Origin: a virus
DNA: 32,343 nucleotides
Reading direction: 5' to 3' (one strand)
IMG/VR virus record: IMGVR_UViG_3300035688_000042
Coordinates: 1 to 32,343 of that record
Each line of letters opens with the position of its first letter. Within the stretch, counting starts at the first letter, position 1. The position numbers and the translations under genes were made by a program. This document shows, piece after piece, positions 467 to 15,981 of this stretch. A model generated the notes under the pieces. It made no database searches. It had not been told where the DNA came from and was given only the letters and a program-made list of their open reading frames with translations.

Positions 467-889
467 ATGTTGGAGAAGGACTATGCGCTCGATGCGTCCA
501 AGAGGTGGGAAGAGGCCGTTAAAGAGCTGAGAAGGCAATGGAGGTCTATGTGGAATGAGCGGTTCGATGACAAGGTGAATGCTGAGGGCATTGCCAAGCA
601 GGATTATCCTTTGCTCTATTTGGAAGGCGGCACGGTTGTTGTTGCCACAAGAAGGTACAGGGCTCCAGACTTTTTCGAGATTCTGGAAAGACATCGCCGC
701 ATGTCAGGGATTTACAGGACTGATGGATACGCTGAGCCGTCAGTGGGTGGATGGCGAAGCTTCTGCAGGAAGACTCTCAAAAGGCAGGTGCACCTTGACG
801 GTCGAAGCAGGCTGGAGTCGCAGGAAGGAAACAGAAAGGCAACCGTGCAAAAGAAGAAAGGAGGCAGAGGCTGGATACATCAATTCTAG
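467..889 (+). CDS. Hypothetical basic protein, 140 aa
   Basis: The frame is open from a TTG at 428, but ATG at 467 is preferred because a TATA-like TTTATATT lies at about 431-438, roughly 30 nt upstream, which suits a leaderless archaeal message. The first ~80 residues look like real protein: a charged helix (residues ~8-30, rich in W, E, R), then LLYLEGGTVVVATRRYR as a strand pair and a helix EILERHRR. The last ~50 residues are low-complexity, very basic (KKKGGRG) and less protein-like. An overlapping frame (579-920) is open across the same stretch, so a frameshift near 690-720 is possible. I do not recognise a family. Confidence 0.4.
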   Translation: MLEKDYALDASKRWEEAVKELRRQWRSMWNERFDDKVNAEGIAKQDYPLLYLEGGTVVVATRRYRAPDFFEILERHRRMSGIYRTDGYAEPSVGGWRSFCRKTLKRQVHLDGRSRLESQEGNRKATVQKKKGGRGWIHQF

Positions 890-1092
890 ATTCCCTATAT
901 GCTTCGTAGACTTTGTTTAGCGCGCTCGTACCACCGTATTGATCAGTCGTACAGTCACGCATAGAGACGTGGCGGCTGACAATACCAGAACGATCTCTAT
1001 GCTAGCAACCAAGTTGCTGCCGAGTTCACCAATTAGGCTGAGGAAGTTCCTCTTGAAGTAACAGCACTATGGCGCGCTTAAATACTACTTGA

Positions 1093-1099
1093 TTTATAA
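1093..1099 (+). promoter_or_regulatory. TATA element for the small membrane protein gene
   Basis: TTTATAA lies 30-36 nt before the TTG start at 1129 and is followed by a strong GGAGG at 1111-1115. The promoter therefore gives a short leader with an internal ribosome binding site. Confidence 0.5.
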
Positions 1100-1128
1100 G
1101 GCATTGGAAAGGAGGCGAATGAATAACC

Positions 1129-1359
1129 TTGGATAAAAGGATGGGTATGCTCCTCGGCGGCTTGCTAATTCTAATTGCCCTGATACTCGGCTTAGTGCAG
1201 CATTTCGGAGTCTACAATATTTACGGAAGCGAAGACTACAAATGGTACTTCTACGGGCTAGTCGGCGTCATCGGCCTAATAGGCATCATACTTGCAGTAT
1301 GGCCGCTTATGAAGACAGAGCAGCCGAAGGCAGAGCAACCTAAAAAAGCAACTGAGTAA
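1129..1359 (+). CDS. Small membrane protein with two transmembrane helices, 76 aa
   Basis: The start is TTG at 1129, 13 nt after GGAGG; an in-frame ATG at 1141 is the alternative. Residues ~6-24 (GMLLGGLLILIALILGLVQ) and ~40-61 (YFYGLVGVIGLIGIILAVW) are clear membrane helices. They are joined by a short polar loop with several tyrosines, and the charged tail (KTEQPKAEQPKKATE) is likely cytoplasmic. No enzymatic motif is seen. It has its own TATA element and no close partner gene, so it is probably a monocistronic host gene. Function unknown. Confidence 0.65.
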   Translation: MDKRMGMLLGGLLILIALILGLVQHFGVYNIYGSEDYKWYFYGLVGVIGLIGIILAVWPLMKTEQPKAEQPKKATE

Positions 1360-1626
1360 CATGACACGTGCGCGTCTTAGACCGTCAGTAGTTTCTTCTT
1401 AACGATTTTTTCGTCTCGCCTTTACTCCCATTTTTAAGCAAGGGCACGGACGCTTCTTCACCTTTCCCATGGAAACGTTGAACGCACGCTTTCCTTATGA
1501 GCCATCCATACTCTTTCCAAAAGCCCAAAGAGAGAATCCAAGTAGGCGAACTGCTGGCTTTCTGTTACTCTCGTTTTTCCGCTGTATGGTTCCGTCCACT
1601 TGTATACTTCGTGAAGCTCAGGTTCC

Positions 1627-1824
1627 TTGACGAGCAAGCGCGCGCGCATGCTGGTCTTGTGGAAATCAGAAAAGGATTTGACAATGTGCAAAATATGTCA
1701 ACGCACAGGACTTGGAAGAAGTGCGGTGTCGAGGCATCTCCGCAACCTTGTAGAGGCTGGGCTAGTTTCCAAAAGGATTTATGGGGAAATCCCCCTCTAC
1801 ACTAGCGCGCGCGCTACCGCCTAA
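1627..1824 (+). CDS. Winged helix-turn-helix transcription regulator, 65 aa
   Basis: The 65 residues form little more than one winged-helix domain. Helix 1 is around RARMLVLWKS, helix 2 around MCKICQRTG, the recognition helix is GRSAVSRHLRNLVEAGLV, and the wing is SKRIYGEIPLYTS. The SxVSRHLxxLxEAGLV pattern is typical of ArsR/MarR-type DNA-binding proteins, which repress or activate by binding operator DNA as dimers. The TTG at 1627 gives a complete helix 1; ATG at 1648 would trim it. A TATA-like TATACTT lies at 1603-1609. There is no ligand or metal-binding domain. The start lies in a run of (GC)5. It could regulate neighbouring genes, but no target is visible. Confidence 0.6.
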   Translation: MTSKRARMLVLWKSEKDLTMCKICQRTGLGRSAVSRHLRNLVEAGLVSKRIYGEIPLYTSARATA

Positions 1825-1870
1825 AGCAATGGCTTCTTAGTTAATTCCTTCCCGAGCTCACGATTAAAAG

Positions 1871-2032
1871 TCATATTCTCAATAAGTCAGGTGGTTCTTT
1901 CACGTTCTTCAATCCAATAGTCACTAACCTTCGTAAGACCTCTGCTTCCCTTAATCCTGACTTCTTAATAAGTGCTTCAATTTCTTTTTCAGTTCTGTCA
2001 TTAAGCCTCGTCGACCATGTCTTTCTACTCAA
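1871..2032 (-). CDS. Ribbon-helix-helix DNA-binding protein, 53 aa
   Basis: This short gene lies in an otherwise empty gap. Reading leftwards from TTG at 2032, the protein starts MSRKTWSTRLND, the N-terminal strand of an RHH fold. It continues with helix A (RTEKEIEALIKKSGL) and helix B (EAEVLRRLVTIGLKNV), ending in PPDLLRI. In this family the strand enters the major groove as a dimer and represses nearby promoters. A TATA element (2071-2077 read on the minus strand) lies about 40 nt upstream. It is divergent to the gene at 2136 and hence to the restriction-modification island. By position it could control that island, as controller proteins do, but this is inference. Confidence 0.6.
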   Translation of the reverse strand: MSRKTWSTRLNDRTEKEIEALIKKSGLREAEVLRRLVTIGLKNVKEPPDLLRI

Positions 2033-2070
2033 GACAATCCGCTCTTTGGACTTATGTGTCTTGTTGCATT

Positions 2071-2102
2071 TATAAATCTTGGTTTAAGCAAAACGCTTAT
2101 AT
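2071..2102. promoter_or_regulatory. Divergent promoter region with an inverted repeat
   Basis: Two TATA elements sit back to back: TATAAAT at 2071-2077 serves the leftward RHH gene, and CTTATAT at 2096-2102 serves the rightward gene at 2136. Between them, overlapping the second, is the inverted repeat TAAGC-AAAAC-GCTTA (2085-2099). An RHH dimer bound there would block the rightward promoter. The TATA elements are seen directly; the operator role is inferred. Confidence 0.45.
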
Positions 2103-2135
2103 GCCGTACACCCCCCTTATCTTATAGCAAGACAT

Positions 2136-2363
2136 ATGAGACAAACAAGTGAATGTGAACAGCAAATGTGGGAGTGGTCAGCAACCGTTTTGGCCATCGT
2201 CTCAGTAACTATTGGAATATTGATCAAATATCACAAACGCGCACTTGAAGTATCGGCCATTCCAAAGAGTTGCATCTGGACAAAAATCCTCAATACCTTT
2301 CAAAAAGGTTTCGACAAGGAGAAAGTTTTATCACATGTTTCCAGATACAACCTGAACAAATGA
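2136..2363 (+). CDS. Small protein with one N-terminal membrane helix, 75 aa
   Basis: ATG at 2136 lies about 35 nt after a TATA element, so the transcript leader is very short. Residues ~10-30 (MWEWSATVLAIVSVTIGILI) form a single membrane helix, followed by a basic segment KYHKRAL. A C-terminal cytoplasmic tail contains helices around TKILNTFQKGFDKEKVL. No family is recognised. It is the first gene on the + strand before the methyltransferase pair (gap of 52 bp with no clear promoter), so it may be co-transcribed with the modification genes. Known LlaJI-type operons do not need such a protein, so its role there is open. Confidence 0.55.
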   Translation: MRQTSECEQQMWEWSATVLAIVSVTIGILIKYHKRALEVSAIPKSCIWTKILNTFQKGFDKEKVLSHVSRYNLNK

Positions 2364-2415
2364 GAAGGAGAAGGACGACTGTCGAATGCATGAACTTCTG
2401 ACAGGGGTTTAGACT

Positions 2416-3489
2416 TTGAGGTTTATTGGATCAAAAGCTAAGTTGCTATCAACCATAGAAGCTGTGGTCAAGAAGTATTCTGACACCGCGCCTACGACTT
2501 TCGGAGACTTGTTTTGTGGAACAGGTGTGGTAAGCCGTCATTTCAAGAGAATGGGGTATGAAGTCACTGCAAATGACAAGCTAGCTTTCTGCAGTGACTT
2601 GGCTAAAGCCGTACTGCTTGTTAATGATGAGCCGCGATTTTCAAAGCTCTTGGATTCTGAGGAAATTACCATAAACAGAGAAATTGAGGGATTATCGCCT
2701 AAACCCTACGATTTTGTCCTTGATTCCCTCAACCGTCTGTCCGGTATAGAAGGTTTTATGTATGATGAATATTCGCCCGAGGGTACTTCTGGAAAAGAAC
2801 ATGTGAGGCGCTATTTCACAGGCTCTAATGCTAAGAGGATTGATGCGATAAGGCAGAGAATAGCTGATTGGGCGGATCATGGTCTGTTAAGTGAAGCTGA
2901 AGAGGCTTTGTTGATAGCTGATCTAATAAGAGCGACAAACAAGGTTGCCAACATTGCTGGTACCTACGGCTATTTTTTGAAAGATTGGGATCGACGTGCT
3001 TTTAAGAGCCTGACTCTGATGCGATCTCGAATCATCAGAAGCGAGAAGCAACACAGAGTCTGCACTAGTGATGCAAATGAATTGGTGAGTCGTGTGGATT
3101 GCAAACTTCTTTATTTTGATCCTCCATATACTTGGCGACATTATGGAGCTTACTATCACATTCTCGAAACCATTGCGAAATGGGATAGACCGAAGGTAAC
3201 AGGCATGTCGGGCATTCGACCTTGGGAGGAAAGTAAATCTCGTTACTGCTACAGGGATGAAGCCGCAGATGCATTGTCAGAACTTATCCAGAAAGCTAAG
3301 GCAGAACATCTCTTCTTGAGTTATAATGACGAAGGTCTAGTTACACATGAAGCAATACTCAAGATTCTTTCAACTAAGGGTAAGCCATCCTGGCAAGCAA
3401 TTTATTACCGTAGATACAGGAGTCACGGAGAGAACAACACAAGAAGCAAAGTTATGGAACGGATATATTATGTTAGAACAGAAAGATGA
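2416..3489 (+). CDS. D12-class adenine-specific DNA methyltransferase (Dam-like)
   Basis: The 357-aa protein begins MRFIGSK, the classic N-terminus of Dam/D12 enzymes, which fixes the TTG start at 2416. Motif I for S-adenosylmethionine is DLFCGTGVVS (residues 31-40). The catalytic motif IV is DPPY (235-238), giving the alpha-class order with the target-recognition region between them. Such enzymes transfer a methyl group to N6 of adenine in a specific duplex site. Its end overlaps the next methyltransferase by 20 bp, so the pair is translated together and probably protects two strands or two sites for the McrB/McrC-like nuclease downstream. The recognition sequence cannot be read from the protein. 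Confidence 0.88.
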   Translation: MRFIGSKAKLLSTIEAVVKKYSDTAPTTFGDLFCGTGVVSRHFKRMGYEVTANDKLAFCSDLAKAVLLVNDEPRFSKLLDSEEITINREIEGLSPKPYDFVLDSLNRLSGIEGFMYDEYSPEGTSGKEHVRRYFTGSNAKRIDAIRQRIADWADHGLLSEAEEALLIADLIRATNKVANIAGTYGYFLKDWDRRAFKSLTLMRSRIIRSEKQHRVCTSDANELVSRVDCKLLYFDPPYTWRHYGAYYHILETIAKWDRPKVTGMSGIRPWEESKSRYCYRDEAADALSELIQKAKAEHLFLSYNDEGLVTHEAILKILSTKGKPSWQAIYYRRYRSHGENNTRSKVMERIYYVRTER

Positions 3490-4420
3490 AAAATCAGGCA
3501 TCCGCTATTCAAAGCCGTTTTGGAGAGTCCTTAAGAGCAACGGTAGACGGAAAAGAGTCGGTGAGTACGGTGTTGATCTAGGGGAGAGAGGAGTGTATGA
3601 TAAGAGGAACACTCTTAACGAGTTAACGGGCAGAGAATGGACTTATTTTCTTAACAGTGTTTGGGTTACTGCATATCCTCCGGCGGCTGCAGACTTTGCC
3701 TTTGACCTCAGAAAAGTTCACCCTTGTCCAAAGCCTCCTCAATTGATGAGAGACATTATTCTCTTTTTTACCAAGACAGACCAATGGATACTTGATCCCT
3801 TCGCTGGAGTTGGAGGGACACTTTTGGGTGCTTCCATATGTGAACACCGTCGACAGTGTGTTGGAATTGAAATAAACAGAGCATTTGCAGAGATTTATCA
3901 CGAAGTATGCGAAAAAATGGGAATACTGCCACAACCGATAATCTGCGATGACGCTAGAAATATGCTCTCACACGATGAGATAAACAGTCGAATGTTCGAC
4001 CTGATCCTGACCGATCCTCCTTATTCTAATCTGATGAATAGACGCAAAAATGGGCAGAAAAAGAAACTATATGATAAGAATGATCCGACACCATTTTCCA
4101 ATGATTCACGAGACATAGGCAATCTGGAGTACAATGAGTTTCTTGCAGAGCTTAGGAAAATATTGGAAAAGTCCATTTCAAGGCTTAGACCAAAGAAATA
4201 TCTAGTTCTCTTCAGCCGGGATTTGCAGCCGATCGAGGCGAAACCAAACCTACTTCATGCTGATGTCATCAATGAAGTCATCAGCATTCCAGGTATTTCC
4301 TACAAAGGTATGCGTATATGGCATGACCAAGCTGTCGATCTCTACCCATTTGGTTACCCGTATGCATTCGTTGCCAACCAGATGCATCAATACATACTGG
4401 TTTTTAGGAAGGAAAAATAA
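3470..4420 (+). CDS. Second amino-type DNA methyltransferase (N4-cytosine/N6-adenine)
   Basis: The frame is open from ATG at 3347, but ATG at 3470 is preferred: it gives a 316-aa protein with a 20-bp overlap and avoids a long overlap with the Dam-like gene. With this start, a conserved HPCPKPPQLMRDI element (residues ~84-96) precedes motif I DPFAGVGGT (109-117), and the catalytic motif IV TDPPYSNL follows at ~181-188. This is the COG0863-like DNA-modification methylase type, methylating exocyclic amino groups. It has no 5-methylcytosine PC motif, unlike the methyltransferases of the original LlaJI system. It forms a modification pair with the upstream gene. A hairpin with a T-run follows its stop. 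Confidence 0.82.
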   Translation: MLEQKDEKSGIRYSKPFWRVLKSNGRRKRVGEYGVDLGERGVYDKRNTLNELTGREWTYFLNSVWVTAYPPAAADFAFDLRKVHPCPKPPQLMRDIILFFTKTDQWILDPFAGVGGTLLGASICEHRRQCVGIEINRAFAEIYHEVCEKMGILPQPIICDDARNMLSHDEINSRMFDLILTDPPYSNLMNRRKNGQKKKLYDKNDPTPFSNDSRDIGNLEYNEFLAELRKILEKSISRLRPKKYLVLFSRDLQPIEAKPNLLHADVINEVISIPGISYKGMRIWHDQAVDLYPFGYPYAFVANQMHQYILVFRKEK

Positions 4421-4427
4421 TCGAGTC

Positions 4428-4453
4428 AGACCACCTTAGCGTCCGTGGTTTTT
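4428..4453 (+). terminator. Hairpin plus T-run after the methyltransferase pair
   Basis: AGACCAC (4428-4434) pairs with GTGGTTT (4445-4451) across a 10-nt loop, with one G-T wobble, and runs into five T residues. It lies 8 bp after the methyltransferase stop and also covers the stop of the convergent zinc-ribbon gene. Archaea mostly terminate on T-tracts, so the T-run may matter more than the stem. Confidence 0.5.
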
Positions 4454-4613
4454 ACTTCGATTTCGGAATAGTATGACTCAACTCGCCTTTCCTGTAATAG
4501 GCTTTGAACTTCTGTTGGCACTTGTTGCAGTCGAACAGTTTGACATGAAAAACAGAATAGTTCCATTCTTTGTGAGTGTCAGCGGCTTCCTTTCCACACC
4601 TTGGGCATTTCAT
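4452..4613 (-). CDS. Small zinc-ribbon protein, 53 aa
   Basis: Reading leftwards from ATG at 4613, the protein starts MKCPRCGKEA and contains a second pair CNKC at residues 29-32, giving CPxC-x24-CxxC. This is the four-cysteine zinc-ribbon pattern of many tiny archaeal proteins. A basic tail (YYRKGELSHTIPKSK) follows. Such proteins bind zinc and usually contact nucleic acid or a partner protein; no specific function is known. It is convergent with the methyltransferases and divergent from the mcrB-like gene. It therefore splits the restriction island into two transcription units. Confidence 0.65.
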   Translation of the reverse strand: MKCPRCGKEAADTHKEWNYSVFHVKLFDCNKCQQKFKAYYRKGELSHTIPKSK

Positions 4614-4676
4614 ATAAGGTCATCTAGTTCCTGCTGTCGTGACATACGTTGCACTCTATTATTGAAAGTCTGAGAG

Positions 4677-4683
4677 TATAAAT
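4677..4683 (+). promoter_or_regulatory. TATA element for the mcrB-mcrC operon
   Basis: TATAAAT lies 38-44 nt before the TTG start at 4721. With the terminator at 4428-4453, this indicates that the restriction genes are transcribed separately from the modification genes. Confidence 0.5.
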
Positions 4684-4720
4684 GATTTTATGTGGCCCGA
4701 TGTGAAAGCTTGGCGCATGA

Positions 4721-6910
4721 TTGAAAAGAAAAAAATTAAAGGTTAGAGATGTGTATGTTCAAGTTATGACAGCGAAACAAGATTTTGTTTACATATTCCA
4801 AGACTACGACCCAAAAGAGTTGCAGGCACTGCCTGAACGTTTCAAGTTATCAGATTTCAATTTCATGATAACAAGTCAAAGAACGATGGCGAGAATACAT
4901 GAGAAGCTAGAGGACATTGATCAAAAGAAAGTTAGTCAAGTGTATGGTAACTTTTGGATTGACCTCAGGGTCTTGGGTCTAGCAAAAGAGAATCAGAATG
5001 AAATTAGTTACTTTGGGAAGACAACTCTGGAATACTTCAGAGGGGAAAAAAGTCCTTTTAAACGTGAACACTTTATTCTCTCAAACATACGGAATAGAAG
5101 CTATGACATCCCGAAGGATGTCCAAGACAGCTATTTTTCCAAGGTGGAGAATCTCAGGAATTATCTTGAGATCATTCCTGTATTAAACCAGAAGGGAAAA
5201 GAGCTTCTTCTTGATGAAGAAAAGGTTTTCTTCACCGAATGCTTGAATACTTTTCCCAAGGCACTAAACCGCTACTTCAGCCTCTCGCCAGATAGACAGA
5301 CTGCTTTGGATTCGTTGCATGAGTCAGGCTTGAAGACCCTTTTTGACCCTAGTGTTCCGACGGAAGCACCTTATGCGAAAGTTGCAAGAAGATTCTGGAA
5401 TGTTTGCCGAACACACCAGAGAAGGACGAATTTCATCAAGTCTGTAATCTTGTCTGGATATGAAGAAAAAGTCAGTAAGAGTAAGCATCATTTCATTCCT
5501 TTTGAAATAATGAGTGCCTACACCAAGATCCTCAACGAGAGATTGCTGATTCCAGTCATCAAGAAGTCAGAAGTCATACAGCTTGCCTTAGGATCAAAGG
5601 CCATCGAAGATATTTTTATCGATGATAACCCGTTGACAATGCCATCAAGAAAGGAGATTCAGGAAACAATATCAGAGATTAGAAAACTGCTACTAATTGA
5701 GGATGATGTCGTGACACAAACAATCTCTAACTTGGTTTCTGGAAGAAACGTAATCATAGCGGGTCCTATAGGAACTGGAAAGACGCATCTAGCTATCCTG
5801 ATCTCGAAACTCGCATGGAAAAAAGAAGGCGGTTATTATCCTGAGGTTGTGACGGCAACCGCTGACTGGACCACTCATGAAGTAATCGGCGGAATATATC
5901 CAAAAGTAGATGAAAACGGTAACGTGAAATACGTTGTTCAACGCGGTTGCGTATATGACAGCGTCGCTAGGAATTGGAAGACCGGCGGTGCTGGAATAGA
6001 AAGAAAAAAAGCCTACGTTGATGGAGAAGAATACACTGGTGTCTGGCTAGTGATTGATGAATTTAATAGAGCCAATATTGATCGTGCGTTTGGAGAGATG
6101 TTCACCGCAATTGAACATGGAAAGTTAAAAGTGCCCACAAGCAAGGAGGGAGAATACTTTGAAGAGATCAGAATACCTAAAGACTATCGAATCATCGGCA
6201 CTCTAAACACTTTTGACAAACACTATCTTTTTAGACTGTCAGACGCATTAAAGAGAAGATTTGCATTTGTGGAATTATTTCCACCTAGGCGAGAAAGGGC
6301 AGAGGAAGAGAAATACTATGTACTAAAGAGAGCGTTTGAAGAATTGTCATACAAGTCTCCTATTTCTGAAAAAATAGTCTTGGATCATGAGAAAAAGACC
6401 ATTGTTCGGGACAAATCTGATCAGGACTTCCTCTCTCTAGTTGACTCGACTTATGAGATAATGAGTTTCATTCGGCTCACCAAGAACCTTGGGACTGCAA
6501 TTCTGATATCAATGTTCAAGTTTATTCTTGTGGATAGCCTTACGAACGACCATCTGGAGAATAGCCTTGACATTGCACTAAAATCAAACGTAGTCCCACA
6601 GTTAGAGAACGTTTCAAAATGGTCATTGGAAGCCATGAGAGCCTTTGCCTGTGAAGATATAACTGACTTTTTCAAGAACGTGAGTCCAGACTCTGTAGAC
6701 TTCAACAAATATGAGACAGAATTTCTGAAACTCGTTCACCTTTATCTAAATAAGGACAATATTCAACACAGACTAGAAAGATTTAGGAAAAAAGATGTAA
6801 CTGAGGAGGAATGGAGGAGCTACGACCCTTGGGCTGGAAAGACAAGACCAAAGTTGCCTCTTTTCAGTCGCTCCCTCACAGAACTCATACAAGAGATCCA
6901 GCTTATGTAA
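4721..6910 (+). CDS. mcrB: McrB-like AAA+ NTPase, motor subunit of a LlaJI-type restriction system
   Basis: The 729-aa protein has an N-terminal region (residues ~1-300) of unknown fold that probably recognises DNA, followed by an AAA+ domain. Walker A is GPIGTGKT (348-355), Walker B WLVIDE followed by FNRANIDRAFGE (442-458), and the McrB-type signature NTFD (496-499). The arginine-finger segment is DALKRRFAF (~508-516). McrB proteins are GTP-driven rings that translocate DNA and activate the McrC nuclease. The TTG start is placed after a TATA element. The downstream mcrC-like gene is 18 bp away. With two methyltransferases upstream, the set fits LlaJI-type restriction (R1 subunit) better than stand-alone methyl-dependent McrBC. 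Confidence 0.82.
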   Translation: MKRKKLKVRDVYVQVMTAKQDFVYIFQDYDPKELQALPERFKLSDFNFMITSQRTMARIHEKLEDIDQKKVSQVYGNFWIDLRVLGLAKENQNEISYFGKTTLEYFRGEKSPFKREHFILSNIRNRSYDIPKDVQDSYFSKVENLRNYLEIIPVLNQKGKELLLDEEKVFFTECLNTFPKALNRYFSLSPDRQTALDSLHESGLKTLFDPSVPTEAPYAKVARRFWNVCRTHQRRTNFIKSVILSGYEEKVSKSKHHFIPFEIMSAYTKILNERLLIPVIKKSEVIQLALGSKAIEDIFIDDNPLTMPSRKEIQETISEIRKLLLIEDDVVTQTISNLVSGRNVIIAGPIGTGKTHLAILISKLAWKKEGGYYPEVVTATADWTTHEVIGGIYPKVDENGNVKYVVQRGCVYDSVARNWKTGGAGIERKKAYVDGEEYTGVWLVIDEFNRANIDRAFGEMFTAIEHGKLKVPTSKEGEYFEEIRIPKDYRIIGTLNTFDKHYLFRLSDALKRRFAFVELFPPRRERAEEEKYYVLKRAFEELSYKSPISEKIVLDHEKKTIVRDKSDQDFLSLVDSTYEIMSFIRLTKNLGTAILISMFKFILVDSLTNDHLENSLDIALKSNVVPQLENVSKWSLEAMRAFACEDITDFFKNVSPDSVDFNKYETEFLKLVHLYLNKDNIQHRLERFRKKDVTEEEWRSYDPWAGKTRPKLPLFSRSLTELIQEIQLM

Positions 6911-6928
6911 ACAGGTGAGAGCCGCAAG

Positions 6929-8332
6929 TTGTCAAAGCAGCTTCTCCTTAACGAAATAGAACGGATTTTTATCGAAAATGAAGAAAAACAAGAGAACATG
7001 GTAGATGAAAAATATGCCTTTACGAAATACCCTCATTTGCTTTCCCTTTTTGAGCATTACAAAGTCAAAGGAGAGAAATGGCATCAGCTAGTGAGGGAAG
7101 TTGCCGTCTTTCCAAAAGACGACCTTCAATACATGTATGGTCGGACAATGCAGCTTCTCAGACGGTTCCTCAAAGACGTTCGCCTATACTTTAGCGTGAA
7201 AACAGAAATAGGCACGTACACTCTTCCCGACAGAATTTCCGATTTGAATCGACTTTTTGAGCTTTACATTGAGTTCTTCACCGTGATATACCCAAATATA
7301 AGTAAAAGGTTGCGCTTTGAGGTTCATTCCCAAGAGCAAGAGTCAAGAATCTTGCGTGGCCGAGTCCTTTGGCCCAAAACGATAGAACGTTGCATCAGTG
7401 AAGGCGACCACACATGTCCAACAACTTTTGCCACGGTTATGCAGAGATATGAATTTGAGACGCCTGAGAACATATTAACGATTCTCTCAGTACTAAGACT
7501 CAAACAGGATTCACTTTTTCTGCTACGATACAATTTCCAAGACCCTCTTTCAACCGGAGAGCGGGCTATACTTGGCAAGATCGTAGATGGCTGCGACAAC
7601 ATTCTAAGAATAACATTGCTTAAGGAATTGCTTCCTCTTGCAGCAAAATACGTGACTATGAGGTTTGAAGACCCTCGGATACTGCTCCTAGAAAACCAAA
7701 GCTATACAAGGCTACGTGGCGAACGTGAAACCAATCCCTATTTACGCCTTCTGCAATGGATACAAAAATACAGAGAGCTAAATCTACGTTCAGTCTCAAT
7801 AAACAAGACGAGTTTTCCTGTTGATCGTCTCCAGAATTTAGATACTATGTTTGAAGTTTGGGTACTGTTCGAACTCTTGGATTATTTTCGAACCTATGAA
7901 GGGGCAGAAATAACAATTGAACGAATGCCACAGAAATTCAGAATTTCAGCACACGGAACGGATTTCATCCTTTTCTATGAAAAGGCATATTCAGGTTGGG
8001 CGATAAATGCAAACCCTGATTTTTCAATCGAGAAAAATGGTGAGCTGAAGATTATAATGGATGCCAAGAACTGGCTCCAACCAAAAACCGAAGCCGTCTA
8101 TAAAATGTTAGGCTATTTAAATAACCTAGATGGGACTATTGGAATACTCTTCTTCCCCAATGAGGCTTCTTTGGGCGGCGAACGAATTTTTGAAGGACAT
8201 GACTTGCAACATCATAAAAAGCAATTACTTTTCAATTGCGTTGTAAAACCGTCCGGTTCTGAAGAGGCAATTCATCGGAAACAGGATGCGCTTAAACAGA
8301 CTGTTGGGATAATATTCCAGAATCTCAGCTAG
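6929..8332 (+). CDS. mcrC: McrC-like PD-(D/E)XK nuclease, cutting subunit of a LlaJI-type system
   Basis: TTG at 6929 follows a clear GGTGA at 6913-6917. The protein has 467 aa. Residues ~1-290 are mostly helical and likely dock onto the AAA+ ring. The C-terminal half carries the nuclease: a conserved glutamate at E309 (TMFEVWVLFELL), then NPDFSIE with D364, and the catalytic DAK (378-380) after the strand LKIIMD. A helix YKMLGYL follows, as in McrC and LlaJI R2 proteins. It would make double-strand cuts when the motor subunit loads. The close upstream mcrB-like gene supports this. I infer that the methyltransferases at 2416-4420 provide self-protection. Confidence 0.8.
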   Translation: MSKQLLLNEIERIFIENEEKQENMVDEKYAFTKYPHLLSLFEHYKVKGEKWHQLVREVAVFPKDDLQYMYGRTMQLLRRFLKDVRLYFSVKTEIGTYTLPDRISDLNRLFELYIEFFTVIYPNISKRLRFEVHSQEQESRILRGRVLWPKTIERCISEGDHTCPTTFATVMQRYEFETPENILTILSVLRLKQDSLFLLRYNFQDPLSTGERAILGKIVDGCDNILRITLLKELLPLAAKYVTMRFEDPRILLLENQSYTRLRGERETNPYLRLLQWIQKYRELNLRSVSINKTSFPVDRLQNLDTMFEVWVLFELLDYFRTYEGAEITIERMPQKFRISAHGTDFILFYEKAYSGWAINANPDFSIEKNGELKIIMDAKNWLQPKTEAVYKMLGYLNNLDGTIGILFFPNEASLGGERIFEGHDLQHHKKQLLFNCVVKPSGSEEAIHRKQDALKQTVGIIFQNLS

Positions 8333-8529
8333 TTTCGAAAACTGAAACTCAGCATGACCCGTTCCCTTAGATCTGCAACCTCTATACCCAGAAGAGCAAA
8401 AATTGGTAGTCAAAAAAGGTTAGCCATGAAGGTAGAAACCGCTCATCAAGGTGGAACAACAATAGAGGAAACGCTCGCGAGCATGTGACATCCTTAAGCG
8501 CGCGCCCGTTGGATGGCAATTCATGCTTT

Positions 8530-8973
8530 CTACCTTCTACGTCTTCCAAACAATATCCACCCGAAAAAGTGAACGATAAGTCCGATAATAATCCATGAAA
8601 TCAAGAACATAATCGTAGAATCATCATAGCCTAAAATCCGATCTGAGATAGAACTTGCCCAACCTAGAAGGTTAACAGCGTTCAGACTAGCAGTCAAAGT
8701 TAAAGCACCAAAAGTCTTTGTTCCAAACAGCGAATACAACATTCTTTTTCCCTTGTAGGCAACTGCTACTCCGAGAATCACATATAATGCTAGGATGAAA
8801 CAGATTATTATGGGTAAATCATTTGAGCCTAGAAACAACGCTGTAAAAATAAGATTCATGATAACACTCATCCACGCTGTGTAGTATCTTTCCCATCTCA
8901 CACCATATCCAATACTCACGAAGGACATGAGAATATTTGACAAGAACGGAGGCAAAAGAGGCAAGACTTTCAC
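8530..8973 (-). CDS. Four-helix membrane protein, 147 aa
   Basis: A GTG start at 8973 gives four hydrophobic segments: residues ~5-22, ~36-70 (NLIFTALFLG and DLPIIICFILALYVILGVAVA), ~84-105 and ~120-142 (TIMFLISWIIIGLIVHFFGWILF), ending in a positively charged GRRRR tail. No channel, transporter or enzyme motif is seen. It lies between the restriction island and the end of the virion operon, on the same strand as the latter but 160 bp beyond its last gene. It could be a host gene or, speculatively, a holin-like membrane protein. Four helices and no partner lysin make the latter weak. Confidence 0.55.
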   Translation of the reverse strand: MKVLPLLPPFLSNILMSFVSIGYGVRWERYYTAWMSVIMNLIFTALFLGSNDLPIIICFILALYVILGVAVAYKGKRMLYSLFGTKTFGALTLTASLNAVNLLGWASSISDRILGYDDSTIMFLISWIIIGLIVHFFGWILFGRRRR

Positions 8974-8990
8974 CTGTTATTTTTTCTATC

Positions 8991-9164
8991 ATGGACTTGA
9001 TTGATCGACTTATTCTAAATGTTCTTGTTTGGCTATGTAAAGATGTTCTCGGTTGTGATATGGAGAGAACATGTAATCTAATACTGAGATGCCCTGATGA
9101 TAAATCGAGACGGCAATACATTCAAAGCAAGTTCAAGGAATCTGGTAGTCCATTGTCATATTAG
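8991..9164 (+). CDS. Possible small protein, 57 aa (uncertain)
   Basis: An open frame from ATG at 8991 reads MDLIDRLILNVLVWLCKDVLG, an amphipathic to hydrophobic helix, followed by CDMERTCNLILRCPDDKSRRQ and a basic tail. The composition is protein-like, but no family is recognised. It starts only 18 bp from the divergent membrane-protein gene, leaving little room for a promoter. Its end overlaps the stop of the minus-strand ABC-ATPase gene by 32 bp. It may be spurious. Confidence 0.25.
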   Translation: MDLIDRLILNVLVWLCKDVLGCDMERTCNLILRCPDDKSRRQYIQSKFKESGSPLSY

Positions 9165-10626
9165 CGCGCACGCTCCAGAATAGGTAGACTTTTGTTTGCA
9201 TTAGGAAGCCACATATTTTGATCAGGCTTGCAAGCTTGTCTAGGTTCGCATGTGCTATTTCTCGTTTGTAGGCTTCTTTCTTACCAAAAGGAAGGTGATA
9301 GGAGAAGCTTTTCAGAAATCTTGTGTGGCTGTGCTTCACGAAAGCCTCTCTTATTCTGGCCACTTGTCCACTGTCTAGGCTCTGAAGCTGGCCTAGAACG
9401 TAACTCATGCTGCTTAATAGTTGAGGGTTAAACTCGAGGGATTCCAAGACCGCCAACAGCTTGAGGGCTTCTTTGGACGGTTGCTGCTCGGCTATCTTCC
9501 TCATTCCTGCCTTCTCTGCGAACGGGTTATACTTGGCCATGACCGCACTCATCTCAACATAGTCTGTGCCTGCCAAAAGCAGCGTCTCACGCACGAGTCT
9601 AGACCCTAAACCTACAGTCCTGTACTTTGGGTGAACAACTACGCGGCTGATTATGCTCAGTTTCTCATTCAATTCTTTCATGGACATTTTCGGAAGGACA
9701 AGCCTGCGTCCGAAGCATGCAGAGGGCGGATAACAGTAGACTATCACGCCGCACAGTTCCTCACCGCGCCTCAGACAGAAGATCTTGCGTGGTGCAGCAA
9801 TCTTGTGGCTTCGATAATGAAAACCTGCTAGACTCCTCCAATCCGCAGTCGTGCCAGCCTCAATGTGCATTTCCCTGACCAAACTGCAATCAGTCGAGGG
9901 CTCGTTTGGGAAGTATTTGACAGTGATCTCTTTTCCAAACCGTTTGTGAACGTGAACGCTGGGATGCAAGTCTTCAAACAGGTCCGTATGTGTTGTTGCT
10001 GCGAGGACAGATTTGCCCTGTGCACGCGCAAGCTTCTGAAGATTGTAGCCCACGATTTTAGCCGTGTCACGATCAAGCGTTGCAGCAAACTCGTCAAGGA
10101 TCCAGAACTGCGCCTGGCTTTCAATCATCCTTGCTATTTTGTAGCGGTATTTCTGGCCATCGCTAAGCTCAGTAAACCTTCTCAAGAAGAGAAAAGCATC
10201 AGAAAGACCAACCTTGCTCAGAAGCTCAAGAGCTTCATTAACACTCTTGCCAACGGTCTCGACAAGAGGTTTATCCTCTTCAGGCTTCACGTCTGCAATA
10301 TTCACCGCACTGAAGCCGGACTCTTCCAAGTCCTTCTGCAAAGCCTTCAACAGGACACTCTTGCCTGAACCTGAATCCCCAGTAATGTAAACGACATCTC
10401 GAGGGCCCAATTTCAACTCAACATTATCGTAAAGAACAAACTTTTCCCAATGGTCGAGACCTAACCCGAAGCCCTCAGCAACAGCTACAACTCTCTCAGA
10501 AGGCTTAGGTGCTGCTGTCGCATAGGCAATGTTGATGACAAAGTTGCCTGTCTTCCTGTCAAAACGTCGCCTGAAGCGTCGAATGTGAAAATACTCTTCG
10601 TTAAGCCTTCTGCCCACATGCTTCAC
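9133..10626 (-). CDS. ABC-type ATPase fused to an acetyltransferase domain (COG2401-like)
   Basis: The N-terminal half is an ABC ATPase without membrane helices: Walker A GDSGSGKS (83-90), signature LSDGQ (154-158), Walker B FWILDE (174-179) and H-loop TTHTD (211-215). The C-terminal half has a GNAT fold at residues ~280-375, with the acetyl-CoA loop VVVHPKYRTVGLGSRLV (329-345). A helical tail of ~120 aa follows. This matches the family described as an ABC ATPase fused to a predicted acetyltransferase; substrates are unknown. Its start overlaps the stop of the upstream small membrane-protein gene by 4 bp (ATGA), so it is the last gene of the virion operon rather than an unrelated host gene. 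Confidence 0.8.
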   Translation of the reverse strand: MKHVGRRLNEEYFHIRRFRRRFDRKTGNFVINIAYATAAPKPSERVVAVAEGFGLGLDHWEKFVLYDNVELKLGPRDVVYITGDSGSGKSVLLKALQKDLEESGFSAVNIADVKPEEDKPLVETVGKSVNEALELLSKVGLSDAFLFLRRFTELSDGQKYRYKIARMIESQAQFWILDEFAATLDRDTAKIVGYNLQKLARAQGKSVLAATTHTDLFEDLHPSVHVHKRFGKEITVKYFPNEPSTDCSLVREMHIEAGTTADWRSLAGFHYRSHKIAAPRKIFCLRRGEELCGVIVYCYPPSACFGRRLVLPKMSMKELNEKLSIISRVVVHPKYRTVGLGSRLVRETLLLAGTDYVEMSAVMAKYNPFAEKAGMRKIAEQQPSKEALKLLAVLESLEFNPQLLSSMSYVLGQLQSLDSGQVARIREAFVKHSHTRFLKSFSYHLPFGKKEAYKREIAHANLDKLASLIKICGFLMQTKVYLFWSVRANMTMDYQIP

Positions 10627-10874
10627 CCCTGCTGTGAAATAAGAATGCCCGTAACAGTGCCCACAAGACCCATGATAGCAGCGAAAATCTCACTGTTCCA
10701 ACTGTGTAATGCGAAAAGATGTGCCACTTCCATGACTGTCAAGCATGCTGTCATTCCAATCGAGAATTTTACAGCATAAACTAGCCTCTCGTTTGGTTCC
10801 TCGATAATAGCAATGCCCCTAGGGCCCCTCTTGACACGTTTGCGAGTAAGAGCCTTTCTAACCCAGTCAGACAT
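10623..10874 (-). CDS. Small membrane protein in the virion operon, 83 aa
   Basis: The N-terminus is strongly basic (VRKALTRKRVKRGPRG). It is followed by one or two hydrophobic segments at ~34-52 (VKFSIGMTACLTVMEVAHLF) and ~62-80 (IFAAIMGLVGTVTGILIS). ATG at 10874 overlaps the preceding gene by 8 bp, and its end overlaps the ABC-ATPase gene by 4 bp. Size, charge and position after the tail genes would suit a holin-like or virion-associated membrane protein, but no lysin partner exists here. Function unknown. Confidence 0.6.
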   Translation of the reverse strand: MSDWVRKALTRKRVKRGPRGIAIIEEPNERLVYAVKFSIGMTACLTVMEVAHLFALHSWNSEIFAAIMGLVGTVTGILISQQG

Positions 10875-11274
10875 GATTCTTCACTCGCTTCTGATAATAA
10901 TTATGATGATAAGCCCTAGTTTCAAAGCGTGTCCGCCCGCCACGAATGAAACTGTTCACAAGTTGCTCCGCCATCCTACATTCAACGCTGGCTTTCGTTA
11001 TTATGCAAAAACTAATGGTCCAAGCAAGTGGTATGCTCGTGTAGTCAATGTCGAACAGGCGGTCAGAATAGCAATAAGTGTTTTGCGCCAAAACTATATG
11101 CTTACTCTTCTGGCCTAAGACACCTATAAATATGCCCCAGCTCTTCACTGGAACATCAACAGCAACGCCGCTGCCTAAGCTCTTTCCTACGCTTGCATCA
11201 CACCATTCAACGCGAACAAGATCACCCAAGCTAAGCTTTCTAAGCTCATCAACAATTCTGCGTTTCAACCTCAC
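10867..11274 (-). CDS. Hypothetical virion-operon protein, 135 aa
   Basis: The protein has an N-terminal basic helix (RLKRRIVDELRKLSLG). A run of predicted beta strands follows (DLVRVEWCDASVG, VDVPVKSWGIFIGVLG, KHIVLAQNTY), resembling a small SH3- or Sm-like barrel. The C-terminus is basic and rich in aromatic residues and histidine (TRAYHHNYYQKR). It lies between the fibre protein and the small membrane protein, with short spacing, and is transcribed with them. I recognise no family. It might be a minor virion or assembly factor. Confidence 0.55.
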   Translation of the reverse strand: MRLKRRIVDELRKLSLGDLVRVEWCDASVGKSLGSGVAVDVPVKSWGIFIGVLGQKSKHIVLAQNTYCYSDRLFDIDYTSIPLAWTISFCIITKASVECRMAEQLVNSFIRGGRTRFETRAYHHNYYQKRVKNHV

Positions 11275-11316
11275 TTTTCACCTTTCCAAATTTGCTTTTT
11301 TGCACGAATACCTACT

Positions 11317-12825
11317 TCATAACACAAGCACGTTCAGATTTTCTGGGTCCGATGCTTTCAGGTTCAATACGGGCTGACCCAAGCTAAGCAAAACACTGCC
11401 TGTTTTGGCAAGCTTGATCTCCCAGACTGTCTTCCCAGTTAGGACGAATTTCTTCGTGTATGTTTGATAGCCTGCCTTCGTAATTGCAAGCGTATGTGGG
11501 CCATAATCCTGCAATGTATTGCCGTTAGCCTGGTTATAGTGACCTCGGCTAACGGTCTGCTTTGCAATGCTCCCGTTTGCATCTGTTGTTATGCTGAAAA
11601 CTTGGTTTCCGTCCCTGTCGGTTAGGGTTACTGTCGCGCCGTTGATCGCATTGTTGTCCTTATCTGTCACTTTCAAGTCGAAGCTATATTGTCGGTAGAC
11701 GACGGCAGTGGGTGAGCTGACCCATAATAGTGCCCAGGCGCTCAGCGTACAATCAATTAGGTAGTGGTTCACAGCTGAGCTCACGATTGTTAGTGCGTAA
11801 CTATTGAAATTGGCAAGCGAGCAGTTTCTCAACGTTGCTGATGTGCTGCCCAGCCTAATCCCCCTATCACTGCCGAAAACGTTAACATTGTTGAAAGTGT
11901 TTGCGCCATAAGTAATGATGCCATACATAGGGCTTGCAGCTTTGGTATCTTCAATGCCAAGATTAAATGCGTCAACGCTTGTATTCACGATTAGCTCTGT
12001 TTGGCCTGTGAAGAGGCAATTCCAGACGTTTGTTCCTGCCCAGATTTCAACGTAAGCACCTGCTAGACTGTAAAAACTGCAGCTGTACAGGTTAATGATT
12101 CCAAGGCCTGCATATTGGCTTGTCATGAATCCGGAAGGTGTTGCGTCATCAAGATAGAGGAAGGAGCAGCCGTCAGTCGTATGCTTCAGTGTTGCGTCAA
12201 TGACTGTCCCAAAAGTCACCGTAGCGGCTGTTCTTACGAGCATCCATGCTCCGGCAGACCACCACCCCTTATTCAGAATAATCATCTTGTTAGTGTCAGT
12301 GAGATATGTCGTTGTTGAGTTATCGCCTACATAGAGCCGGCAGTCAAAAGCGAAAGTGTTCGTTCCAAGCTTCCATACCACGCCCCACTGGCCTTGCTTT
12401 ACTTCGTATGCAAAGCTTCCTGTCCCGCTGAACACTGTAACTTGAGATTGGGTTAAGGTCGCGAAGTATTTGGTGGCGTAATATGTGCCATTTCCAGTGA
12501 TTGCTAGATCCTCAGTCTGAGCGTTGCCAGCCGTGTCCGTTCCGACAAGCCTAACTGTTGCAGAAGTCATATTCGTCCAAGCAGTTACGACTATGTAGAG
12601 ATCCTGCTTTGCACCGCCGAGCACAACTCTATCCGTTGGTCTTGCGTTTCTAGTGAGAGCTACTGGGTTTGCGTCTATTCCGATTATTCCTGTCCTAGCA
12701 TGAAGGCTTAATGTTCCGGCTTTATCTGCGTTCCAGATGTCAAGGAAAGTGATTGGTGCAGACTGAGTGCCGCCTGTCATGTTGATTCGATTGTTCGCGA
12801 CATCATAAGTGAATGTGCCGACCAA
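11317..12825 (-). CDS. Beta-helix fibre/adhesin with a C-terminal carboxypeptidase-regulatory-like domain
   Basis: The 502-aa protein is rich in G, T, N and S with regular short strands. Residues ~130-365 contain repeated patterns such as SFLYLDDATPSG, LYSCSFYSL, NVWNCLFTG, ATLRNCSLANF and YLIDCTLSAW, typical of a right-handed parallel beta-helix. Residues ~378-475 (FDLKVTDKDNNAINGATVTLTD, then FSITTDANGSI, GPHTLAITKAGYQTYTKKF) match the beta-sandwich CarboxypepD-regulatory/PEGA-like fold common on surface proteins. No catalytic residues are evident. Position after the hub suggests a receptor-binding fibre that attaches to host glycans or the S-layer. Confidence 0.65.
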   Translation of the reverse strand: MVGTFTYDVANNRINMTGGTQSAPITFLDIWNADKAGTLSLHARTGIIGIDANPVALTRNARPTDRVVLGGAKQDLYIVVTAWTNMTSATVRLVGTDTAGNAQTEDLAITGNGTYYATKYFATLTQSQVTVFSGTGSFAYEVKQGQWGVVWKLGTNTFAFDCRLYVGDNSTTTYLTDTNKMIILNKGWWSAGAWMLVRTAATVTFGTVIDATLKHTTDGCSFLYLDDATPSGFMTSQYAGLGIINLYSCSFYSLAGAYVEIWAGTNVWNCLFTGQTELIVNTSVDAFNLGIEDTKAASPMYGIITYGANTFNNVNVFGSDRGIRLGSTSATLRNCSLANFNSYALTIVSSAVNHYLIDCTLSAWALLWVSSPTAVVYRQYSFDLKVTDKDNNAINGATVTLTDRDGNQVFSITTDANGSIAKQTVSRGHYNQANGNTLQDYGPHTLAITKAGYQTYTKKFVLTGKTVWEIKLAKTGSVLLSLGQPVLNLKASDPENLNVLVL

Positions 12826-12829
12826 GAAA

Positions 12830-13042
12830 TTAACTCCTCACAATGCTTATCACATTGCCAGCGCTGTAGCTGAAAGTCAACGTGAAAAGCGTCGCACCAC
12901 CCGTTTCCTTGAAGATGATAGTATTTATTGAGCCGTCGCCATTCCAAGTGAAATCAACTTGCTTAATCTTCTTGCCCGTCGGCGCAGCAGAGATGCTACT
13001 GAGAATCGCATCATGAATTGCCTCGCCACCCCAAACACTCAA
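12830..13042 (-). CDS. Small virion-associated protein, 70 aa
   Basis: The sequence begins MSVWGGEAIHDAILSS and continues with strands KIKQVDFTWNGDGSINTIIFKE and TLFTLTFSYSAGNVISIVR. This KQ(V/I)xFTWxGDG...TI pattern occurs in small beta proteins next to tail fibre genes of tailed viruses; I use it as a pattern, not a proven homology. It starts with a 4-bp overlap with the stop of the 980-aa hub gene and ends 4 bp before the fibre gene. It may link fibre to hub or assist folding of the fibre. Confidence 0.55.
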   Translation of the reverse strand: MSVWGGEAIHDAILSSISAAPTGKKIKQVDFTWNGDGSINTIIFKETGGATLFTLTFSYSAGNVISIVRS

Positions 13043-15981
13043 CTTGGCACACTCACCTTTTCCTTACGTTTTCCACGCATCTTCATCCATAACCGGTTCA
13101 ATTTGAAGCTCTTAGGACGCAACTTCCCGAAGAGCGCGAGATTCCCGTTTTCGTCAAGCAGCATTATGATCTTCCCTTTTGGATTGAGGAAAGCGAGCCC
13201 CTTTCCCAGTTTGAGGTTTTCGGCTTCTGTGATGCGAAAATCATTTTTGAATATTATGTCTGTGGCATGCCAATTCGTGCAGTTTACGGCACCAGTTGCA
13301 AGACTGGAGGTTGTTATCCCTCCCGGGAATGTCATAATATCCATGAAATTATGGGGTATGCGCTCTTCAGCGAATGTTCCAGAAGTAACGGCGCTGGCAC
13401 TATGCGTGTGTGATGATGGTGGGTAAGTGCTTGGCTTGTCTGGAATATTCGCCCAGAACGCGGCTGCAAAAAAGTCGGAGATCTTCGATCGACTCAAAGT
13501 TGGAATGCGGTCTACACCTAAGATGCCAGAAGTTATTAGGCCGGCGTCAGCTGATAGGTTTTGAATGACGCCAGCGCTTGTGATAACGATTGTACCGCTG
13601 AGTGCGAGGGAGAAACATGAAAAGTTGTTGTCAGTCCTAAGGTGAGTAGCATCAACGCGATAAAGGTTTACGTCACAACCGCCTGTGCCTGGACCGAAGT
13701 AGAGTGCTCCCTTTTGAAGAATCGCGCCCGGATAGGCGTCTGCGCCGCTGTAGAGGTTAAGCGGGTCTTTGAGGTTCGCTTGCAGGTTCTGAAGAATTCG
13801 AGCTGCAGTGATGACTTCAGTGGCTCCGATACGGAGAGCCAACGCGTCAAAGTTGTCGTCAGTCTTCAAGACCTCTGCTGCTGAACGATAGAGCTTGACA
13901 TCTAGGGCAATGTTTCCAGCGCCAAACCATAGTGCACCTTTTACCATGTAAGCTGATGAGTAAGAGTCTCCTGGGTACCATAGGGCGAGAGAATCAATCA
14001 TGTTGACGTATTTGACCCAGAGTTCGTACCAGTAGAGCGAAGAATCGCCTAGCTTGCCGTATGCTGCAGCTGTAGGACAAAAAATGTGATGAAGATTAAC
14101 ACTTCCCGCAATGTTTTTCGTGCGAAGGTAAAGACGATCAGCAACATCAGTGTAGGGACCAATGTACTTAGGTTGGATCCAGCCAGAAAGGCGGTCCGAG
14201 CCGCCCAAGCTTGGGTCTGACCATATAACACCAGACTCATCGCCCGCTTCATGCGTTGTCTTATGAGGTGGGGATTGAGCGGCTAAGACTGCGATTATCT
14301 GAGAGAGCGCTGCACCCTTCCCAAGCTTGACCCTCGCAAGCTTTTCAACCGTAACTGTCGTCGCTCTGAGGCCGTAAAGATAGTCTGCCAAGAGAGGCGG
14401 AACCTTTCCCAAGTCAAACGTGAGCTCAAGTGTTTGGCTATTTGCGTAGACGTGATAGTCAATTGCTTCAGTGCGGTAGTCTCCATTGATGTTTTCGTTG
14501 TACAAGTGTACGTGGATCTTGTCAGCTGCTAGGGGCGGCGTAAGGCCGTAATCGATGATTGTGCTCCTCATAGTCAAATATTCTGCAGGATCCTTCAGGT
14601 AAGCGAGCAAAGCTTTGGCCCTGTGGGCGCATTCGGCATCCGATGCCAATTCATCATCAGTTTCAGTGAGTTCACGGATGCCATAGAGAGCTTGGCTAGC
14701 AGAGTCTTGTTCTAACGCTGAAAATCTGCCATTCTTGAAGTAGAGCTGGTCGATATGAAGTGTTGAGCGTCCGAGCCCGCTTTTGGTCACATAACCCTCG
14801 ATGTAGAAGAGAACCTTGTTTATGTTCTTCCAGTTTGGGCTGCCTGTCTTCGTCCAGGCAGGCGTCGTTCCAGACGCTGTCTCGTATGGTTTGCCGATTT
14901 TCTCGTCATGGTAAATCCAGCGGATGTCTGCAGCTTCGCTTTCGGTGAGGATGAATTCCTTCTGGAAGTAGTTGCTATCATCAGTCATCAGTTGAATCCT
15001 AATCTTGGTGCAGCGATATTCACACCCGGAATCCAAGTCTTCGCCCGTTGCTCTCAGTACAGCACATATGCTCTGATACCCGTAGTCGCCGCCGCATTCT
15101 ATTGGCGATGCCAACGCATATTTTGCCCAGCCGCTCGTTGTTCCTGCTCGGCCTGTGCGGAGCTTTATGCTTGCAGTTCCAGCAACTTTGTCGCTTGAAT
15201 CAGCCGTAAGTGTTGAGCCGCCTGCGTCATGTGTCCAGCTTGTTATCGTCTCAGTCCAAGCATCCATGTCTGAAGGGTTAACCTTCGCTGCCATCCCGTA
15301 AGCTATGATTTTGTTTCGGACCCTGAGAATGTCTTTCTTGTAACTGCCAAATTCACCCTTGTCAACAAGGTTTATCGACGCGCTCTTGCTGTTCTTTGCG
15401 AAAAACTCAAACTTCCCGTCCGGCGCCACGCGAAAATCGTAGCCTATGACGCCGGCCTTATCGCTGCTTTCAGCAACGTATTTCAGGACATCCCAAAGAG
15501 GAGTATTCTCGTATTCCAGCTTGTTAAACGTCGTGTCTGTATCTTCGACAAGCTCTGTCCCGCCTCTGTTGTGGCTCAGGTTGGCGTAGTTGTCCATGAG
15601 GTCCTTGACTACGGCTTCGCCCTTGCTTGACGAATAGTCTTTAGTGATGACTCGCCTGAACAGTTTCTCGCCAAAGCACCTGCCTGAAACAGTAACGTAA
15701 TTCTCATCGGGGTTAGGATGTTCATATTCGACGCTTTCAACGTGGCAAGCTATTATTGGTGGCAGGTTTGAGCCGCGGCCAATGTTTATGCTCCCATCCA
15801 AACCTACAGTGATGGGAGTTGTTCCGCTTGGACTATATTTCTTGTCCCAGTTTTGCAGTTTCACACTGAAGGATGATACTTCTTTTGAGCAGCCTAGATG
15901 AACGTTGACGTCTACGATGTCGCCTTGGGGCGGAGTGACTGAGCCGAAACTCATGCTTACGACGGGAAGGGGAACGCTCAA
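13039..15981 (-). CDS. Tail hub/tip protein with carbohydrate-binding insert and fibre repeats
   Basis: The 980-aa protein has a modular build. Residues ~1-245 and ~425-555 resemble the split barrel/hub of gp27/gpD/Tal-type proteins, with strand-rich segments and the helical KDLMDNY and PLWDVLKYVAE. Residues ~246-420 (from WTHDAGGSTLTADSS to STLHIDQLYFKNG) look like an inserted jelly-roll carbohydrate-binding module. Two internal repeats at ~680-733 and ~756-809 share KGAL(W/Y)FG.G....DV.LYR......L.TD.NF and I(L/I)QNL, fibre-like units. A further SHTH segment (~857-860) and a C-terminal strand repeat follow. It forms the distal tip that contacts the cell. Confidence 0.7.
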   Translation of the reverse strand: MSVPLPVVSMSFGSVTPPQGDIVDVNVHLGCSKEVSSFSVKLQNWDKKYSPSGTTPITVGLDGSINIGRGSNLPPIIACHVESVEYEHPNPDENYVTVSGRCFGEKLFRRVITKDYSSSKGEAVVKDLMDNYANLSHNRGGTELVEDTDTTFNKLEYENTPLWDVLKYVAESSDKAGVIGYDFRVAPDGKFEFFAKNSKSASINLVDKGEFGSYKKDILRVRNKIIAYGMAAKVNPSDMDAWTETITSWTHDAGGSTLTADSSDKVAGTASIKLRTGRAGTTSGWAKYALASPIECGGDYGYQSICAVLRATGEDLDSGCEYRCTKIRIQLMTDDSNYFQKEFILTESEAADIRWIYHDEKIGKPYETASGTTPAWTKTGSPNWKNINKVLFYIEGYVTKSGLGRSTLHIDQLYFKNGRFSALEQDSASQALYGIRELTETDDELASDAECAHRAKALLAYLKDPAEYLTMRSTIIDYGLTPPLAADKIHVHLYNENINGDYRTEAIDYHVYANSQTLELTFDLGKVPPLLADYLYGLRATTVTVEKLARVKLGKGAALSQIIAVLAAQSPPHKTTHEAGDESGVIWSDPSLGGSDRLSGWIQPKYIGPYTDVADRLYLRTKNIAGSVNLHHIFCPTAAAYGKLGDSSLYWYELWVKYVNMIDSLALWYPGDSYSSAYMVKGALWFGAGNIALDVKLYRSAAEVLKTDDNFDALALRIGATEVITAARILQNLQANLKDPLNLYSGADAYPGAILQKGALYFGPGTGGCDVNLYRVDATHLRTDNNFSCFSLALSGTIVITSAGVIQNLSADAGLITSGILGVDRIPTLSRSKISDFFAAAFWANIPDKPSTYPPSSHTHSASAVTSGTFAEERIPHNFMDIMTFPGGITTSSLATGAVNCTNWHATDIIFKNDFRITEAENLKLGKGLAFLNPKGKIIMLLDENGNLALFGKLRPKSFKLNRLWMKMRGKRKEKVSVPS

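Follow-up and report, generated by a model that had tools for sequence, protein, structure and literature searches.

Which kind of restriction system is encoded by four adjacent genes at positions 2416-8332 of the virus record IMGVR_UViG_3300035688_000042, and is the virus itself the carrier? The terminase, portal and capsid genes of the window, by which we mean the whole record of 32,343 bases from a tailed virus, are located on the minus strand. On the plus strand, between 2416 and 8332, four intact co-directional frames are found, which encode two methyltransferases (M1 and M2), a McrB-like protein (ORF3) and a McrC-like protein (ORF4). An earlier note on this DNA had described the genes in this way, with both methyltransferases of the DPPY and not of the 5-methylcytosine type, and the frames, their Pfam matches and their motifs agree with that description. 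As a random assembly of genes such a set would be far beyond chance.

We regard it as fairly probable that the four genes constitute a full restriction-modification system of type II, which is related to McrBC and belongs to the LlaI kind; the restriction of unmethylated sites is its most likely predicted activity. This reading is based on the gene set, the motifs, the operon order and on another, distant genome in which M1, M2 and the reader domain of ORF3 also occur together, there beside a different engine. The features are as follows.

2416..3489, plus strand: M1, D12-class methyltransferase, predicted to be specific for N6-adenine (PF02086, 1.7e-29; PADLOC MTase_II, 6.7e-88)
3470..4420, plus strand: M2, predicted N6_N4-class methyltransferase, for N6-adenine or N4-cytosine (PF01555, 7e-21)
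4721..6910, plus strand: ORF3, McrB-like protein with an N-terminal reader fused to an AAA_5 motor (PF07728, 7.2e-15; TgMcrB 6ut3, 1.6e-15)
4790..5452, plus strand: reader domain of ORF3, residues 24-244, homologous to a stand-alone protein of 273 residues in Neobacillus soli (L028:14395-15216, minus strand)
5747..6262, plus strand: AAA_5 GTPase-type motor of ORF3, residues 343-514 (Walker A GPIGTGKT, VIDEFNR, and NTFD as NxxD signature)
6929..8332, plus strand: ORF4, McrC-like nuclease subunit, directly after the McrB-like gene (PF10117, 1.9e-5)
8015..8068, plus strand: PD-x13-DAK nuclease motif of ORF4, residues 363-380 (from an alignment of 11 proteins)

The gene set and its relative in Neobacillus soli

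M1 has a TTG start and comprises 357 residues; its FCGTG motif is followed by DPPY at residue 235. M2 contains FAGVG and then DPPY at residue 182. The cytosine-5 motif PCQ/PCN was found by motif inspection neither in M1 nor in M2. A longer frame of M2 opens at ATG 3347. Because relatives align only from about residue 40-80 of that frame, ATG 3470 is probably the start, which gives a protein of 316 residues and therefore an overlap of M1 and M2 of 20 and not of 143 nucleotides. For ORF3 the comparison with N. soli likely favours ATG 4766 over TTG 4721 as the start.

The Walker A and B motifs and the Nx(xx)D signature that characterize AAA proteins of the McrBC superfamily are present in ORF3. 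Its best solved relative is McrB from T. gammatolerans; McrB from E. coli matches at 2e-11. The reader matches no entry of Pfam, NCBIfam, PADLOC or the PDB, and a profile search of solved structures also revealed none.

The closest relatives found for both methyltransferases are encoded by the same locus of N. soli (L028). When 84,980 species genomes were scanned with an alignment of M1, 385 relatives were confirmed and the best 80 retained; the N. soli protein, 47% identical to M1, ranks first among all 385. Its M2 relative is 56% identical, the next one, from the viral locus L186, 48%. In an M2 tree of 24 rows the window and N. soli proteins are paired with a support of 94/85. The opposite strand of the N. 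soli locus encodes the protein of 273 residues, an AAA protein of 452 residues and a protein of 600 residues with DUF2357 and PDDEXK_7 domains. The reader is 28% identical to the first of these (3e-14 in a pairwise comparison, 5.9e-11 in a search of the whole N. soli genome), which is a separate protein and not fused to the motor. The engine belongs to another branch: the N. soli AAA protein has the signature GTVNID (NxD), in contrast to NTFD (NxxD) in the window, and these two signatures mark deep McrB branches according to passages of a census of 2024 (PMC11090510).

As M1, M2 and the reader are found together in N. soli while motor and nuclease differ, the specificity parts appear to be kept while the engine changes. 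We conclude that a putative site-specificity module consists of M1, M2 and the N-terminal reader. In the mechanism we propose, M1 would methylate an adenine on one strand of an asymmetric site, and M2 an adenine or an N4-cytosine on the other strand. The reader would recognize the same site when unmethylated. The McrB-like ring, which would draw its energy from the hydrolysis of nucleotides, would then translocate on and cut the unmarked DNA together with the McrC-like PD-(D/E)xK subunit. We infer that the site recognized by the reader is that of M1 and M2, that a methylated site is protected from cutting, and that the genes are functional.

The neighbours of other M1 relatives include FokI, AlwI-family, McrBC and further nucleases. 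In L034 a fused M1-M2 relative adjoins a full FokI homologue (1.8e-129 to 1fok). A nuclease-like gene for about 460 residues stands beside M1/M2 pairs in L029, L031, L051, L074, L080, L185, L187 and L188. The proteins of this family start with a LWILTEERPK-like motif and have no Pfam or NCBIfam match where this was tested; they likely represent an unrecognised type II nuclease family. Members are encoded, among others, at:

L029:8623-10014
L031:6938-8329
L074:3714-5120
L187:2605-3984

That M1/M2 pairs stand beside such conventional nucleases is the pattern of cognate methyltransferase pairs protecting against a nuclease for unmethylated sites, and it supports a joint protection of an asymmetric site, with one half provided by M1 and the other by M2. 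FokI- and AlwI-type systems share related D12 methyltransferases with the window; they differ in that their nucleases are single polypeptides and have no McrBC engine. Fused M1-M2 methyltransferases were also seen in Poribacteria (L038, L040, L041, L042, L045). No nuclease gene is obvious in the surroundings of L038 and L042, and these proteins are perhaps solitary enzymes.

Nuclease, reader and competing explanations

Several findings weigh against a complete type II system. The PF10117 match of ORF4 is borderline (24.2 bits, cut-off 23.9) and covers only residues 102-184. The hhalign comparison of ORF4 with six McrC proteins gave an E value of 0.0026 and a probability of 11%. The structure prediction of ORF4, from 11 sequences, is of low confidence, with a predicted local distance difference test (pLDDT) value of 38.6. 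Relatives of the reader were found in none of the 298 other genomes of the class of N. soli (1 of 299, N. soli itself), in no plasmid and in no viral contig except those of the same virus. The reader has no known fold, and its AlphaFold model, made from an alignment of two sequences, is likewise of low confidence (pLDDT 34.9). About 300 nucleotides lie between the end of M2 and the McrB-like gene, so methyltransferases and engine may be expressed separately. Finally, a motor relative in L181 has no adjacent co-directional methyltransferases.

From the weak and partial PF10117 match it may be argued that the McrC-like protein has diverged so far that it no longer cuts, and that M1 and M2 are anti-restriction or regulatory methyltransferases beside a decayed nuclease. 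We consider this very improbable: none of the four frames is interrupted, and the PD-x13-DAK motif is present in full, with P363, D364, D378, A379 and K380 invariant in the 11 aligned proteins. The profile of these 11 proteins matches McrC 6ut5 at 1.4e-6; however, it includes recognised McrC proteins, and this match is therefore of little weight for the window protein by itself. A search for the McrC-like protein in Methanobacteriota, which had no positive control, gave no match in 151 genomes. Within the reader region, at residue 119, one match of 25% identity begins.

A McrB match was obtained in 257 plasmid records, five of which were opened. Four proteins related to the ORF3 motor and encoded on plasmids (E about 1e-31 to 1e-28) have other neighbours, and in L179 the motor relative is found with two DPPF methyltransferases. 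The earlier note had held that an mcrBC-like pair conserved without these methyltransferases would speak against their pairing. McrB/McrC relatives with other or with no adjacent methyltransferases do indeed occur; this indicates a swapping of engines, but not that the two parts are functionally unlinked.

Do the McrB-like and McrC-like proteins of the window cut modified DNA? McrB-like genes with the NxxD signature are classically modification-dependent, and together with the neighbours in L179 and L181 and the gap after M2 this would suit a type IV nuclease, in which case M1 and M2 would be separate neighbours that mark DNA for other ends. This explanation is improbable in our view. The reader accompanies M1/M2 relatives in N. 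soli despite an engine of the other branch, and Pfam reveals none of the modified-base domains SRA, EVE or YTH in the window reader or in the N. soli protein, though a modified-base fold of another kind may be present. Moreover, many D12 methyltransferases with McrBC neighbours exist.

Relation to LlaI, LlaJI and other McrBC systems

The preferred reading as a type II system of the LlaI kind can be compared with several described systems. LlaI, BsuMI and LlaJI are grouped in a passage of PMC2614495 as McrBC-related type II systems which cleave unmethylated DNA and possess paired methyltransferases of type IIS. A paper of 1995 on LlaI is cited in the reference lists of PMC2614495 and PMC3990576, and in the latter list the pTR2030 enzyme is termed 'type II A methylase'.

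A Lactococcus phage gene annotated as 'LlaI methylase' encodes a D12-class protein (3.5e-52) that is 30% identical to M1. The region of this gene is 99.4% identical on the DNA level to plasmid pUCCL629C (L113). There, a methyltransferase annotated in short pieces is followed by an AAA gene (PF07728, 2.1e-11), a 'LlaJI family restriction endonuclease' and AbiA, and we infer that this is the LlaI cassette. Like LlaI from the Lactococcus plasmid pTR2030, the window contains in one operon a D12 methyltransferase beside genes for a McrB-like AAA protein and a PD-(D/E)xK nuclease. The two systems are nevertheless distant. M1 is only 30% identical and the AAA protein 27% over 147 residues; the second methyltransferase of the window is of the N6_N4 class, its reader is fused to the AAA domain, and the nuclease genes have no significant similarity (0.032).

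LlaJI and BsuMI share with the window the order of two methyltransferases, McrB-like and McrC-like genes and the same engine logic. BsuMI has 5-methylcytosine methyltransferases. The same is reported for LlaJI in PMC1459862. The earlier note had called the locus LlaJI-like, which is correct for the gene order and not for the family membership. PF09563 (RE_LlaJI) gave no match to ORF4 at E <= 1, although the positive control L120:10658-11959 was matched at 4.8e-34, and the methyltransferases belong to PF02086 and PF01555 and are not cytosine-5 enzymes; membership in the LlaJI family was therefore rejected. An hhalign comparison of ORF4 with three LlaJI-type relatives also failed. The McrBC systems of E. 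coli and T. gammatolerans likewise have an AAA motor and a PD-(D/E)xK partner, but these are type IV, have no cognate methyltransferases and cut modified DNA.

How often do D12 methyltransferases adjoin McrBC? A McrB-like gene was found beside the M1 relative in four of the best 80 of the 385 genome loci (L028, L033, L036, L090) and in 9 of 62 viral loci (L117, L120, L121, L123, L124, L125, L129, L132, L138). The 62 loci exclude the same virus, and L117 and L090 represent one locus, as the match coordinates agree. The sequences behind the McrB profile are those of the window, L027, L033, L036, L090 and L113, which thus match by construction. These tallies are rough lower bounds, as many loci end at a contig edge. 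The second methyltransferase is of the Eco57I class in L033, L036 and the plasmid L027, and in L120 and L125 a TaqI/Eco57I-class methyltransferase precedes the D12 gene. A putative reader of about 180 residues, different from that of the window, is common to systems that combine D12 and McrBC genes (L033:13536-14081, L036:12646-13188, L121, L123, L124, L129, L138); it has no Pfam match where tested.

What the earlier note had envisaged for the window, a LlaJI-type engine beside two adenine-type methyltransferases, was found in three prophages. In all three a reader-AAA fusion and then a nuclease-type gene come after the D12 gene; the nuclease family was tested in L120 (RE_LlaJI). Systems of adenine-type methyltransferases, a reader-AAA fusion and a LlaJI-type nuclease are predicted at:

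L120:6353-11959
L125:5906-11722
L132:1-4031 (the contig begins at the D12 gene)

Judged from their sequences, LlaJI-type nucleases with adenine-type methyltransferases do exist in these prophages, and not in the window. The L120-type reader has no similarity to the window reader.

The combination of a McrBC engine with amino-methylation, which the earlier note had taken for a new variant, is already known. LlaI is a precedent, D12 genes beside McrBC occur repeatedly in other loci, and passages of the census report methyltransferase-linked McrBC in all McrB branches (PMC11090510), which removes the supposed novelty. Among the open-licence papers found by literature searches, no title or abstract opening names this virus or a system of D12, N6_N4 and McrBC genes.

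The virus as possible carrier and the putative site

The G+C content of the cluster is 41.5% and that of the structural genes 49.6%. The cluster sits at the contig end, and the McrB match was found in none of eight related virus records, though these are fragments. All this would be expected if the cluster were host DNA beside a provirus or part of a mis-joined contig; the biochemistry would then be the same, and the virus not the carrier. This appears rather unlikely. L002, another contig from the same sample, is identical over 564-16329, and in it the cluster runs unbroken into the viral tail-gene side; as both come from one sample, the contigs are not independent. In addition, the neighbouring ABC-GNAT gene has DNA matches in the related viruses L012-L014. 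When viral contigs were scanned with each of the four proteins as a single sequence, matches came from the same virus only. Further features of the record are:

9133-10626, minus strand: fusion of an ABC ATPase and a GNAT acetyltransferase, adjoining the cluster
29165-30268, plus strand: Shedu-type gene (SduA C-terminal domain PF14082, 3.9e-13; PADLOC SduA, 3.7e-10)
30617-31654, minus strand: C-terminal TIR domain of the CAP12/Pycsar type (PF10137, 9.4e-17)

The Shedu-type gene is a second defence-like gene on the virus record beside the restriction-modification set. Protein relatives of the ABC-GNAT fusion are found in bacterial phages, including large Pseudomonas and Stenotrophomonas phages. 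The terminase is related to those of Meiothermus/Thermus phages and a Halogranum virus at about 28-31% identity, from which no host was assigned, and a search with the capsid protein for a host clue gave no match.

The FokI neighbour in L034 hints at a GGATG-like site, which at about 41% identity is only a lead. In the window GGATG occurs 52 times, compared with 62.1 expected (rank 47 of 512), which is no notable depletion. Tentatively, and with less than even confidence, we propose a portable cassette of M1, M2 and the reader, which is present in two deeply separated McrBC engines. The reader would have a new DNA-recognition fold, and the unmethylated M1/M2 site sensed by it would possibly resemble GGATG. 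If this is true, a single site-specificity module is able to serve molecular motors that are unrelated to each other. For McrBC-type restriction it would mean that the site-recognition module, including the methyltransferases, may be separable from the motor, and if so, reader domains could be assigned through their co-occurrence with methyltransferases of known site.

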